Shown: positions 5,691 through 61,210 of the stretch, in pieces | Layout of the letters: each line of letters begins with the position of its first letter | Position numbering within the stretch: the first letter of the stretch is position 1 | The notes under the pieces: generated by a model | The model's database searches: none | What the model was told of the DNA's origin: nothing | What the model saw: the letters and a program-made list of their open reading frames with translations, nothing else | Assembly (NCBI RefSeq): GCF_021728535.1 | Contig: NZ_JAKKDU010000001.1 | Coordinates: 1-64,000 of the forward strand | DNA length: 64,000 bases | Origin: Wocania arenilitoris | Lineage (GTDB): Bacteria; Bacteroidota; Bacteroidia; Flavobacteriales; Flavobacteriaceae | Reading direction: 5' to 3' | Made by a program: the position numbers and the translations under genes

Positions 5691-5706
5691 TGTTCCACGT
5701 GGAACA
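5691..5706. other. parS centromere-like site upstream of mnmG
   Basis: TGTTCCACGTGGAACA is a perfect 16-bp palindrome. It equals the parS form known from Pseudomonas and is one base per half-site from the Bacillus consensus TGTTtCACGTGAAACA. ParB (Spo0J) binds parS near the replication origin in most bacteria. A second site lies just after mnmG. Only these two CACGTG cores were noticed in the window. Binding by this organism's ParB is inferred. Confidence 0.85.
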
Positions 5707-7605: not shown

Positions 7606-7625
7606 GACGTTCCACGTGGAACGTC
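7606..7625. other. parS centromere-like site downstream of mnmG
   Basis: GACGTTCCACGTGGAACGTC is a perfect 20-bp palindrome starting 7 bp after the mnmG stop codon. Its 14-bp core GTTCCACGTGGAAC is identical to that of the site at 5691-5706, but the outer bases differ (ACG/CGT instead of T/A). This makes it a slightly diverged second parS. It could also fold as a hairpin in the mnmG transcript, but the shared core with the upstream copy favours a DNA-binding site. Confidence 0.8.
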
Positions 7626-22301: not shown

Positions 22302-22342
22302 GAAGTTAAAAAGGTTAAGAAGTTAAAAAGGTTAAGAAGTTA
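22296..22342 (+). repeat. Tandem repeat, 17-bp unit, 2.7 copies
   Basis: Units GGTTAAGAAGTTAAAAA start at 22296 and 22313, with a partial copy from 22330. The first copy includes the stop codon of rfbB. The unit contains the half of the inverted repeat that faces the right end of the cassette. Confidence 0.9.
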
Positions 22343-22345
22343 TAG

Positions 22346-22702
22346 ATGTTAAAAGAAATAAAATCGCATAAAGATTTAAAAGTGTGGCAAGAATCAATGT
22401 CGCTGGTTTTAACAATATATAAACTTTCTGAAAAATTTCCTTATCATGAAACGTATGGATTAACATCGCAATTACGAAGAGCTTCTGTTTCCATACCATC
22501 AAATATTGCTGAAGGAGCAGGAAGAAGAGGCGAGAAAGAATTTATAAGGTTTCTGTATATAGCTTTAGGATCTCTTTCAGAAATTGAAACTCAATTAGAA
22601 ATAGCTTACAGATTAAACTATATTGAAGAAATAGAGGAGATAAATAAGAGTATTTATTTTATTAGAAAAATGCTGGCAAATCTTATAAAAAGTTTAAAAT
22701 AA
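22346..22702 (+). CDS. Four-helix-bundle protein (23S rRNA IVS-protein family)
   Basis: 118 residues. Matches the S23/IVP family: start HKDLKVWQESMSLVL, central YGLTSQLRRASVSIPSNIAEG, then GRRGEKEFIRFLYIALGSLSEIETQLEIA. The fold is a small four-helix bundle that forms pentamers; relatives are found inside 23S rRNA intervening sequences and as Avd-like proteins of diversity-generating retroelements. There is no reverse transcriptase here. It is intact and in the same direction as its host operon. Function is unknown. Confidence 0.88.
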   Translation: MLKEIKSHKDLKVWQESMSLVLTIYKLSEKFPYHETYGLTSQLRRASVSIPSNIAEGAGRRGEKEFIRFLYIALGSLSEIETQLEIAYRLNYIEEIEEINKSIYFIRKMLANLIKSLK

Positions 22703-22755
22703 ATGTTGTTCCGTATAACTTCTTATAACCTATTTAACCGTATAACTATAAGTTT

Positions 22756-48504: not shown

Positions 48505-48581
48505 TCATTCCTGCGAAGGCAGCAATCCATTTTACAACAATAAAGGGTCAATTAATAAGATTCCTGCTTTCTCAGGAATGA
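48505..48581. terminator. Long inverted repeat between convergent genes
   Basis: TCATTCCTGCGAAGGCAGCAATC (48505-48527) pairs with 48559-48581 as its reverse complement with three mismatches; each arm is itself a small hairpin of the ATTCCTGC type. A similar unit lies at 63856-63875. It separates the GT9 gene from the ferredoxin reductase gene. It may serve as a bidirectional terminator or be a repeat insertion. Confidence 0.7.
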
Positions 48582-58339: not shown

Positions 58340-59917
58340 ATGGCAGAAGTAAAACCAGCTGAAATTTCAGCAATCTTAAAACAACAACTTTCGGGTTTTG
58401 AAGCATCGGCTTCATTAGATGAGGTAGGAACAGTATTAACAGTAGGTGATGGTATTGTACGTGCTTACGGATTGTCTAATGCACAATACGGGGAGTTAGT
58501 AGAATTTGATGGTGGTCTTGAAGGTATTGTACTTAACCTTGAAGAGGATAACGTAGGTATTGTATTATTAGGACACTCTAAAGCAGTAGCTGAAGGTTCT
58601 ACAGTAAAGCGTACAGGTCGTATCGCATCTATAAATGTAGGAGAAGGTATTGTTGGACGTGTTGTTGATACATTAGGAAACCCTATAGATGGTAAAGGAC
58701 CAATTACTGGAGAAACTTACCAAATGCCATTAGAGCGTAAAGCTCCTGGAGTAATTTATCGTGAACCAGTTACTGAGCCATTACAAACAGGTATTAAGTC
58801 TATAGACGCCATGATTCCTGTAGGGCGTGGGCAACGTGAGTTAGTAATTGGTGATAGACAAACAGGAAAAACTACCGTTTGTATCGATACGATTTTAAAT
58901 CAAAAAGAATTTTACGATGCAGGCGAGCCTGTATATTGTATATATGTTGCAGTAGGTCAAAAAGCATCTACCGTAGCAAACATTGCTAAAGTATTAGAAG
59001 AAAGAGGCGCATTAGCTTATACAACTATTGTAGCAGCAAATGCATCAGACCCTGCACCAATGCAGGTATACGCTCCAATGGCAGGTGCTGCAATTGGTGA
59101 GTATTTTAGAGATACTGGTCGTCCAGCATTAATCATTTACGATGATTTATCTAAACAAGCAGTAGCTTACCGTGAGGTGTCTTTATTATTACGTCGTCCA
59201 CCAGGACGTGAGGCGTACCCAGGCGATGTATTTTACTTACACTCTAGATTATTAGAGCGTTCTGCAAAAGTTATTAATGATGATGATATTGCTAAGAACA
59301 TGAACGATTTACCAGATAGCTTGAAGCCTATGGTAAAAGGTGGAGGTTCTTTAACAGCTTTACCAATTATTGAAACACAAGCAGGTGATGTTTCTGCATA
59401 TATTCCAACTAACGTAATTTCTATTACAGATGGACAAATTTTCTTAGACGGAGATTTATTTAACTCTGGTGTTCGTCCAGCAATTAACGTAGGTATTTCG
59501 GTATCTCGTGTTGGTGGTAACGCACAGATTAAATCTATGAAAAAGGTGGCAGGTACTTTAAAATTAGATCAAGCGCAATTCCGTGAATTAGAAGCATTTG
59601 CTAAGTTTGGATCTGATTTAGATGCCGTTACTTTAAATGTAATTGAAAAAGGAAAACGTAACGTTGAAATCTTAAAGCAAGCACAAAACGATCCGTTTAC
59701 AGTTGAAGATCAAATAGCCATTATTTATGCGGGATCTAAAAACTTATTAAGAGACGTTCCTGTTGAAAAAATAAAAGAATTTGAAAGAGATTTCATAGAA
59801 TTCTTAAATGCTAAACACAGAAATATTTTAGATACATTAAAAGCAGGTAAGTTAACTGATGAGGTTATAGATACATTAACAGCTGTAGCAAAAGATTTAT
59901 CAGGAAAATATAACTAA
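58340..59917 (+). CDS. atpA: ATP synthase F1 subunit alpha
   Basis: 525 residues. Walker [10 protein letters not shown] is near residue 171, [13 protein letters not shown] near 269, and the ATPase alpha/beta signature [13 protein letters not shown] near 384. Non-catalytic nucleotide sites and the C-terminal helical bundle are intact. The following gene atpG is separated by a 432-bp gap, filled by cassette B. Confidence 0.98.
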
Positions 59918-59930
59918 AGTTCAGAGTGAT

Positions 59931-60344
59931 AAGTTATGAGTTCAGAGTAATTCACTCATAACAGAATACTTTTTTATAAGTACGATGTCATTAAATAACA
60001 GTCCTATTAGAGTAAAGAGTTTTCAATTTGCTTGTGATATTGTTCATTTTACTGACAAATTAAAAGAAAATAAAGATTTTGAATTAGCATCTCAATTAAT
60101 AAAAAGCGGAACAAGTATTGGAGCCAATACTAGAGAAGCTTAAAGAGGAGTTAGCACAAAGGATTTTAAAAATAAGTTTGGTATAGCACTTAAAGAAGCT
60201 GATGAAACCAAATATTGGTTAGAAATTTTAGAAGCGACTGGAAGAGAAATACCAAAAGACATGATGAATAAATGTGAGGAGTTAATAAGGATATTGGTTG
60301 CGATAATCAAGAACTCATAACTCAGCATTCATAACTCATAACTT
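59931..60344. mobile_element. Four-helix-bundle cassette B, between atpA and atpG
   Basis: AAGTTATGAGTT (59931-59942) and AACTCATAACTT (60333-60344) are a perfect 12-bp inverted pair around a broken four-helix-bundle ORF. The left end also has AGTTCAGAGT twice (59918-59927, 59939-59948), beginning right after the atpA stop. The right end repeats AACTCATAACT (60312-60322, 60333-60343), and the ORF stop lies in the first of these. The atpG ATG is 5 bp after the element. The repeat core AAGTTAT also occurs in cassette A. No transposase is present. Confidence 0.72.
59985..60320 (+). pseudogene. Four-helix-bundle protein gene with in-frame stop
   Basis: The frame from ATG 59985 encodes 52 residues (SPIRVKSFQFACDIVHFTDK, then SGTSIGANTREA) and meets TAA at 60141-60143. 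The same frame then continues RGVSTKDFKNKFGIALKEAD and KYWLEILEATG to TAA 60318-60320, so only one codon is wrong. Relatives have Gln or a small residue there, so CAA to TAA is the simple explanation. It is in the same family as the gene at 22346 but distant in sequence. Restart at internal ATGs is unlikely. Confidence 0.85.
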
Positions 60345-60349
60345 GAAAA

Positions 60350-61210
60350 ATGGCAAACTTAAAAGAAATACGTAACAGAATATCATCAGTATCATCAACG
60401 ATGCAGATTACCAGTGCCATGAAAATGGTGTCTGCCGCAAAGTTAAAGAAAGCTCAAGATGCTATTACCGCAATGCGTCCTTATGCAGATAAGTTAACCG
60501 AGCTTTTACAAAGCCTAAGTGCGACTTTAGATGCAGATTCTGGAAGTAAATATTCTACACAACGCGAAGTTAACAATGTATTAATTGTTACTATTACCTC
60601 TAACAGAGGTTTATGTGGCGCTTTTAATTCTAACATTATTAAGCAAACACAAAACTTAATAAATAATGTGTATGCTGATAAAAAAGTTTCTGTTGTTGCG
60701 ATAGGAAAAAAGGCAAATGATGCGTTTTCAAAGCAAAATATTGTAATCGCTAATAAAAGTGAAGTCTTCGATGATTTAACTTTTGATAATGTTGCAGAAA
60801 TTGCAGAAATGCTAATGGAGAAATTTGTTGCAGGTGAGTTTGATAAAATTGAAATTGTGTACAACAAGTTCAAAAACGCAGCGACTCAAATTGTTATGAC
60901 TGAACAATTTCTACCAATCGTGCCTGTTGAAGGCGAAGCCATTAATAATGCCGATTATATTTTTGAGCCATCAAAAATTGAAATCGTAGAACAGTTAATT
61001 CCTAAGTCATTAAAAACACAATTGTTTAAAGGGATAAGAGATTCTTTTGCAAGTGAACATGGTGCACGTATGACAGCAATGCATAAAGCAACAGATAACG
61101 CTACAGAATTAAGAGACCAGCTTAAGTTAACGTATAACAAAGCACGTCAAGCCGCAATTACTAATGAAATATTAGAAATTGTAGGTGGAGCAGAAGCATT
61201 GAACAATTAA
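60350..61210 (+). CDS. atpG: ATP synthase F1 subunit gamma
   Basis: 286 residues. N- and C-terminal helices form the rotor shaft: starts LKEIRNRISSVSSTMQITSAMKM and ends RQAAITNEILEIVGGAEAL. It is the last gene of this operon; atpD and atpC are not in the window, as in other Flavobacteria where they lie elsewhere. Its distance from atpA is due to cassette B. Confidence 0.96.
   Translation: MANLKEIRNRISSVSSTMQITSAMKMVSAAKLKKAQDAITAMRPYADKLTELLQSLSATLDADSGSKYSTQREVNNVLIVTITSNRGLCGAFNSNIIKQTQNLINNVYADKKVSVVAIGKKANDAFSKQNIVIANKSEVFDDLTFDNVAEIAEMLMEKFVAGEFDKIEIVYNKFKNAATQIVMTEQFLPIVPVEGEAINNADYIFEPSKIEIVEQLIPKSLKTQLFKGIRDSFASEHGARMTAMHKATDNATELRDQLKLTYNKARQAAITNEILEIVGGAEALNN

Follow-up and report, generated by a model that had tools for sequence, protein, structure and literature searches.

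The window analysed here, a stretch of 64,000 nucleotides from Wocania arenilitoris, carries intact atpA (ATP synthase alpha; 58340..59917, + strand) and atpG (ATP synthase gamma; 60350..61210, + strand) genes, both recognised from the ORF list and from relatives, by tblastn in the case of atpA. The end of atpA at 59917 and the start of atpG at 60350 leave a gap of 432 nt. A left arm of heptad repeats of AGTTCAG/AGTTATG type (59918..59957, + strand), identified from the sequence, a repeat scan, lag-7 periodicity and pairing, directly abuts the atpA stop codon. It is followed by a broken ORF of the S23/IVP family of four helix bundles (59985..60320, + strand), the frame of which begins with ATG at 59985 and is halted by an in-frame TAA (60141..60143, + strand), as seen in the ORF list and by comparison with other gap copies. 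The frame's own stop codon (60318-60320) falls within the right arm (60311..60344, + strand), composed of heptad repeats of AACTCAT/AACTCAG type which are complementary to the left arm, as revealed by repeat scan, pairing and periodicity. The repeat scan detected a perfect 12-nt inverted repeat (59931-59942/60333-60344) overlapped by longer, imperfect arms (59918-59943/60311-60336), and the arm-arm pairing of the window copy amounted to -25.2 kcal/mol with about 20.2 expected arm-arm pairs. The preliminary description of a 432-bp gap between two intact genes, with one TAA at 60141 breaking the ORF and with perfect ends, was thus accurate, and its reading of an insertion-type element proved right. 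The longest frames in the gap were the IVP ORF in its two pieces plus an antisense frame of 62 aa, and none of them is a transposase such as an insertion sequence or transposon would carry. No Rfam match was obtained in 59800-60450, and a known structured RNA was rejected. The ends were also rejected as a genome-wide dispersed repeat, the 12-mer AACTCATAACTC being present at 27 places with at most one mismatch as compared to 22 for its reversed control.

Both sides of the TAA matched PF05635 (Pfam 23S_rRNA_IVP), the first piece with E 1.2e-8 (35.6 bits) and the second with E 4.2e-7 (30.6 bits, which alone is under the cut-off of 33.8), and the frame read through the stop scored 75.4 bits, above that cut-off, as a member of the family does. 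An intact relative scored 96.4 bits against TIGR02436 (cut-off 24). The protein model of an intact atp-gap relative (L102) had a pLDDT of 94.4 and was a four-helix bundle, nearest in structure to the chains of 2RLD and 2GSC (TM-score 0.86). Profile and fold are thereby shared with the S23 family, the window copy being a broken member. The L102 model resembled, at a greater distance, Avd of diversity-generating retroelements (PDB 4DWL; TM 0.69, Foldseek probability 0.96, with a weak E of 0.76), a resemblance to PF05635 already published according to the excerpted text of PMC10053308. The modelled fold is similar, but the window's genome has no RVT_1 match for the reverse transcriptase of such a retroelement, and a reverse-transcriptase partner was rejected on this ground.

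We searched atpG in 397 Flavobacteriaceae genomes, of which 387 had a match, and compared the atpA-atpG gaps at the best 90 matches, the window included. The junction had been described as normally tight, which did not hold, as the 90 gaps measured 15 to 568 nt with a median near 72 and most were folded. Among the 82 gaps of at least 25 nt without a full IVP frame (the seven IVP gaps and one 15-nt gap being excluded), fold z was below -2 in 64 (mean -3.68) and above -1 in nine. The control of 13 co-directional gaps of the window gave a mean z of -1.50 with five below -2, and is small and mixed, two of its gaps adjoining the second IVP ORF. The non-IVP gaps among the 90 were mostly hairpins with sequences unrelated to one another. 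An IVP ORF was present in seven of the 90 (L012, which is the window, L016, L039, L057, L064, L065 and L092), frameshifted in L057, and the gaps of L096 and L046 resemble IVP remnants. An intact ORF in the gap of all relatives, which the preliminary description had named as evidence against its reading, was seen in part, with the ORF at 6 of the 89 other gaps; the three congeners examined had gaps of 136, 136 and 56 nt, all without the ORF. The content of the gap can switch wholly within one genus, the ORF being present in G040 and absent in G262, and likewise present in G112 and absent in G309.

A 7-nt periodicity with z > 2 was found in 22 of the 81 gaps that are at least 30 nt long and lack a full IVP frame, one of these 22 being the remnant L096, and therefore arms-only forms in a similar style exist. 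We read 20 further gaps, six from distant Flavobacteriaceae and 14 from other families, of which 17 were bounded (L225, of 221 nt, doubtfully). Several of these were heptad hairpins by eye (L213, L220, L221, L223, L224), and four of the 17 bounded gaps were just 7-24 nt long (L217, L218, L219, L226). As nine of the 82 gaps had z > -1 and these four distant gaps are so short, the stem is dispensable. A different palindrome, of TCATTCCTGCG type, fills the gap of L013, L014, L017, L021 and L030 among others, and an inverted pair of this type is also present at 48505-48581 of the window. Another palindrome, GTTCCACGTGGAAC, has two spacer copies in the window (5692-5705 and 7609-7622), which we take to resemble ParB-binding parS sites.

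A scan of 84,980 species genomes with an alignment of five gap ORFs turned up 115 relatives, and the best 80 were taken further. All 80 lie in the same atpA-atpG gap, in bearers that include Gelidibacter, Flagellimonas, Kordia, Maribacter, Aquimarina, Dokdonia, Leeuwenhoekiella and Aequorivita. With three of these being gaps already among the 90, 84 different gap copies are known, 355-568 nt long, and the frame is open over at least 100 aa in 71 of them and broken in 13, the window's included. The arms of the gap copies are heptad-like, with a lag-7 identity of 0.54 on the left and 0.63 on the right as compared to 0.28 and 0.32 after shuffling, while the identity inside the ORF equals background. 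Paired with 60-mers from the interior of the same element, which serve as background, the left arm reached a mean of -15.2 over the 84 copies, and 75 of the 84 copies showed at least eight expected arm-arm pairs, that is, a terminal stem as in intervening sequences (IVSs).

The gap ORFs fall into two types, and the arms follow them, as judged simply by counting the words AGTT/AATT and AACT/AATT. Among the 68 copies of the first type, the left arm was G-type in 64 and the right arm C-type in 55, with nine ties and four of T-type. The second type has AT-rich arms, the right being T-type in 15/15 and the left A-type in 13 with two ties. Matched arms paired at -31.1 in the first type and at -25.0 in the second, but first-type left arms with second-type right arms reached -24.0, and second-type left arms with first-type right arms only -14.6, which is the internal level. 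Since pairing across types is weaker than matched pairing, the two arms vary in concert from one ORF type to the other. Arms specific to the single copy were not found within the atp-gap copies, where the own right arm had a median rank of 30 of 84; such specificity showed up only when ORF types or junctions were compared. Weaker pairing in broken copies was looked for and rejected, as broken (-31.0, n=13) and intact (-29.9, n=71) copies paired alike (p 0.79). The suggestion that the ends or their pairing still matter is in keeping with the like pairing of the 13 broken and 71 intact copies and with arms that co-differ between ORF types.

The element is not confined to the atp operon. PF05635 is present in 299 of the 397 Flavobacteriaceae genomes, and the window's own genome has 11 IVP matches that make up 10 copies, two adjoining pieces being at one place. 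We examined 39 copies outside the atp gap, namely nine from the own genome and the 30 best-scoring PF05635 loci among those listed for Flavobacteriaceae, which are not a random draw. All 39 lie in sense between co-directional frames, with neighbours called mechanically as ORFs of 70 aa or more, of which the one upstream of L206 appears to be spurious. Co-directional spacers account for 4247 of the 6551 spacer nt in the window, which puts the chance at about 0.32 per copy. From the encoded protein ends, we take the junctions to include groES|groEL, rfbB|rfbA, trpG|trpD, fadB|fadA and sdhA|sdhB as well as positions before argH, hemE and hisA. Most of these copies have arms of their own kind, and own arms paired at -37.3 as compared to -27.2 (sd 7.0) for swapped arms. 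The own partner arm was the best of 39 in 14 copies and among the top three in 24, and the own right arm ranked 14th or worse in six (L004, L009, L183, L187, L189, L206). Lag-7 identity was 0.39 and 0.43 against 0.31 and 0.32 after shuffling.

The second element in the window (22302..22755, + strand), with an open IVP ORF and TAAGAAGTTA-type arms, lies between presumed rfbB-like and rfbA-like genes. The rfbB|rfbA gap is of 3 nt in the congener G001 as against 454 nt here; of 21 loci, 16 were read in this comparison, L242 had no upstream ORF, L234 and L239 gave no clear reading, and most of the remaining loci have a different upstream gene. The left arm of this element consists of a 17-nt tandem repeat, which covers the final codons and stop codon of the upstream (rfbB-like) gene; the C-terminus of this gene is unlike its counterpart in congener G001, where the gap is of 3 nt. 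A two-frame IVP element (L007) lies between groES and groEL in the own genome, and of the three congeners two have 21 and 22 nt at the corresponding gap and one has 103 nt. With this copy at hand, an insertion within an essential operon, which the preliminary description had called unusual, is not unusual even in the same genome. Elsewhere, three IVP matches of equal score stand in tandem at a spacing of 398 nt (G269, contig C1, 563406-564516), as if the element had multiplied head to tail, and a tandem run of AACTCAG heptads that lies apart from the IVP matches listed (G000, contig C23, 214629-214654) is possibly an arms-only relic.

In a tree of 109 IVPs, which omits the own copies L007 (two pieces) and L008 (the window copy) as well as repeats of identical proteins, the 71 gap proteins formed one group against 38 others, with one change as compared to a shuffled mean of 31.6 and a branch support of 75. 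In a 44-row tree the six atp-gap representatives formed a clade with support of 100/99. Several rows of both trees have long branches and their placement is unsure. Ten labelled junction groups required 10 changes on the 44-row tree (minimum 9, shuffled 23.4). Supported single groups were atpA|G, argH, rluD and sdhA|B only; ctaA was a single group without support, and fadB|A, trpG|D, hemE, MINLFN and tilS needed two changes each. Binding to one junction is therefore not demonstrated for all groups.

The closest known likeness of this architecture is with the IVSs of 23S rRNA that carry an S23p ORF, as in Coxiella, Leptospira and others. As given in the accessible parts of PMC4990558, the Coxiella IVS has 428 nt, a 28-bp terminal stem with the S23p ORF in its loop and tandem heptamers before the ATG, and is excised by RNase III; the same parts give the function of the S23 family as not known. 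The atp-gap copies (355-568 nt) are alike in size and, as far as that text goes, in having a long terminal stem whose loop carries an S23/IVP ORF, tandem heptamers ahead of the start codon and a sense orientation relative to the transcript of the host. The 23S rRNA IVSs lie inside rRNA, whereas the window element sits between two protein genes of an operon and not in a 23S rRNA gene; the arms here vary by copy and junction, and cleavage here is putative. The Coxiella ORF is called expendable by its authors in the accessible text (PMC4990558), whereas the atp-gap ORF is under purifying selection in relatives. Intergenic TAACTGA heptamer repeats of Beggiatoaceae, cyanobacteria and some Bacteroidetes, to go by the excerpt of PMC4679880, are similar in being seven-base direct repeats close before start codons. 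They are, however, one fixed heptamer in that excerpt, whereas the heptads here change from junction to junction, have a second arm to pair with and in many cases lie on either side of an IVP ORF.

We consider it fairly probable that the gap holds an old, decaying IVS-like intercistronic element which acts at the RNA level, in the direction of the operon. At the level of sequence, this reading is carried by the anatomy, the protein family, the residence of one ORF group at one junction and the co-differing arms, and likewise by purifying selection in relatives, the recent decay of the ORF in this copy and the in-sense architecture at other junctions. Action on the transcript is suggested by the sense orientation, the paired arms and the ORF in the loop, as in 23S rRNA IVSs. 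The two heptad-repeat arms would form a stem whose loop codes for the S23/IVP four-helix-bundle protein. Folded in this way, the operon transcript would be cut, the likeliest enzyme being RNase III as for the IVSs of 23S rRNA, or the stem would at least insulate the atpA mRNA from the atpG mRNA. An RNase III gene was found in the window's genome. The IVP protein may bind such stems or their RNA and so favour the persistence of the element. When the ORF dies the stem could stay, and the gap of most ORF-less relatives has another hairpin. Points against this reading are the like pairing of own and foreign right arms within the atp-gap copies, the low rank of the own right arm in six of the 39 other copies, the gaps that fold weakly or have just 7-24 nt, the small and mixed fold control, and an inheritance that was not purely vertical. 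RNase III excision, an effect on atpA:atpG expression and RNA binding by the protein are inferences.

The age of the element can be judged from its relatives. The dN/dS of gap ORFs had a median of 0.083 over 29 disjoint pairs. Over 72-110 codons per comparison with the 18 copies listed as closest, the window ORF gave dN of 0.03-0.10 and dS of 0.69-1.3, which is in the range of the atpA dS of 0.5-2.4 to the same 18 loci. Since all of the best 80 relatives share one gap and silent divergence is operon-like, the comparison indicates that the element is an old resident of the atpA-atpG junction. Among 1208 atpA-distant pairs, fourfold sites were too close in two for the IVP and in one for the atpG control, and as too-similar pairs were not in excess, a horizontal transfer of the ORF in recent times was rejected.

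Of the alternatives, that of an ordinary atp-operon gene of the host, encoding a small RNA-binding regulator, inherited mainly vertically and flanked by attenuator hairpins, survives best, and we regard it as unlikely. Purifying selection, one ORF group at one site and operon-like silent divergence all agree with it. So does the tree comparison (66 of 69 loci), in which the ORF tree and the atpA+atpG tree had 14 of 63 splits in common (shuffled mean 0.17, largest 2); the Mantel r between ORF and operon was 0.25, the largest of 1000 permutations being 0.18. However, such a gene would be missing in most relatives, with seven of the 90 gaps holding the ORF and two more looking like remnants, and it would have paralogues with a like architecture at other junctions. 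On the tree of the 90 atpA, with the two remnants counted, IVP presence took nine changes for nine bearers (shuffled 8.8). Five of 14 well-supported IVP splits clash with well-supported operon splits, and correlation with atpA at fourfold sites was lower for the IVP (r 0.36) than for the atpG sample (r 0.49). In view of the scattered presence, the conflicting splits and this weaker tracking of atpA, inheritance was not purely vertical. The two ORF types moreover alternate within Kordia, Aequorivita, Aquimarina and Leeuwenhoekiella. We compared the flanks (first 100 nt on each side) in six within-genus or near pairs, one of which, from Aquimarina, had its atpA side out of register. Kordia 2-867 and K. 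algicida were 91% and 97% identical in the flanks up to the junction and 60% in the ORFs, which speaks against an ordinary host gene; the remaining pairs give a less clear picture, their identity next to atpA being 71-84% (Aequorivita 80% and 90%, Leeuwenhoekiella 71% and 94%). The element was probably lost many times across relatives, and many losses with some ancient replacement fit the data best. Repeated site-specific gain at the junction may also have contributed.

The stop codon at 60141 looks recent, since dN/dS of the window ORF to its three closest copies is 0.02-0.04; it is either young or an error. That the TAA stems from faulty assembly or reads, with the ORF still alive, is compatible with the IVS-like reading but appears rather improbable. 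It is a single nonsense codon in a frame that is otherwise strongly conserved (dN of about 0.03 with the nearest copies listed), which is what an error would look like, but broken copies such as L057 are not rare, being 13 of the 84 different copies with the window's counted.

Still less credible is an element acting at the DNA level, the arms of which would serve as ends for a single-strand transposase (Y1/IS200, REPIN-like) supplied in trans. The genome does have 14 Y1_Tnp matches, and palindromic ends together with arms-only forms recall the logic of REPINs or MITEs. REPINs and RAYTs (PMC3116915) are likewise short palindromic intergenic elements. The IVP copies, unlike these, have no common end sequence and were sense-only in the copies examined, and sense orientation in 39/39 copies is unexpected of DNA transposition. 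Arms that vary from copy to copy are a further point against it. Of the 14 Y1 matches, the five copies that were read have end hairpins unlike the arms, and a search of 400 nt on either side of these five for eight short motifs gave a lone match, to the heptamer AACTCAT, once. On these five, the Y1/IS200 copies were rejected as the source of the ends. Among the IS200-like Y1 copies of the own genome, L274 has the same sequence as L275 and as L276 in the 23 nt that precede the match start and in the 365 nt that begin there.

A recent transposon-like insertion into a normally tight junction, as the preliminary description had proposed, is the least probable of all, for although the three congeners without the ORF, its scattered presence on the host tree and the short congener gaps at rfbB|rfbA (3 nt) and groES|groEL (21 and 22 nt) would suit it, the exact site is common to all of the best 80 of 115 relatives, silent divergence is operon-like with about as few too-close pairs as in atpG, the gap of relatives is not tight, and no target duplication flanking the element was recognisable in the repeat scan of the window copy.

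With the IVS-like reading of the atp gap, the copies at other junctions raise the possibility, which we put forward tentatively and as doubtful, of a wider family of RNA-level elements at operon junctions. Its members would be bound to their junction, have matched heptad arms and an S23/IVP protein, lie in sense and be excised from or cut the polycistronic mRNA, thereby splitting or tuning expression. IVSs, the S23 family, heptamer repeats and IVP genes in cas loci are already known, the last from the available text of PMC3936711; no description of IVP elements at operon junctions was found in the open-access literature searched. S23/IVP proteins have no known function and have been discussed mostly as ORFs of rRNA intervening sequences. 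The IVS-like architecture in mRNA operons of Flavobacteriaceae makes their function testable in cultivable bacteria, and the atpA|atpG junction offers natural intact, broken, arms-only and empty alleles. If the wider family is real, the 23S rRNA IVSs would be the ribosomal branch of a larger family of mRNA intervening sequences, one that would spread with neither a transposase nor a reverse transcriptase of its own.
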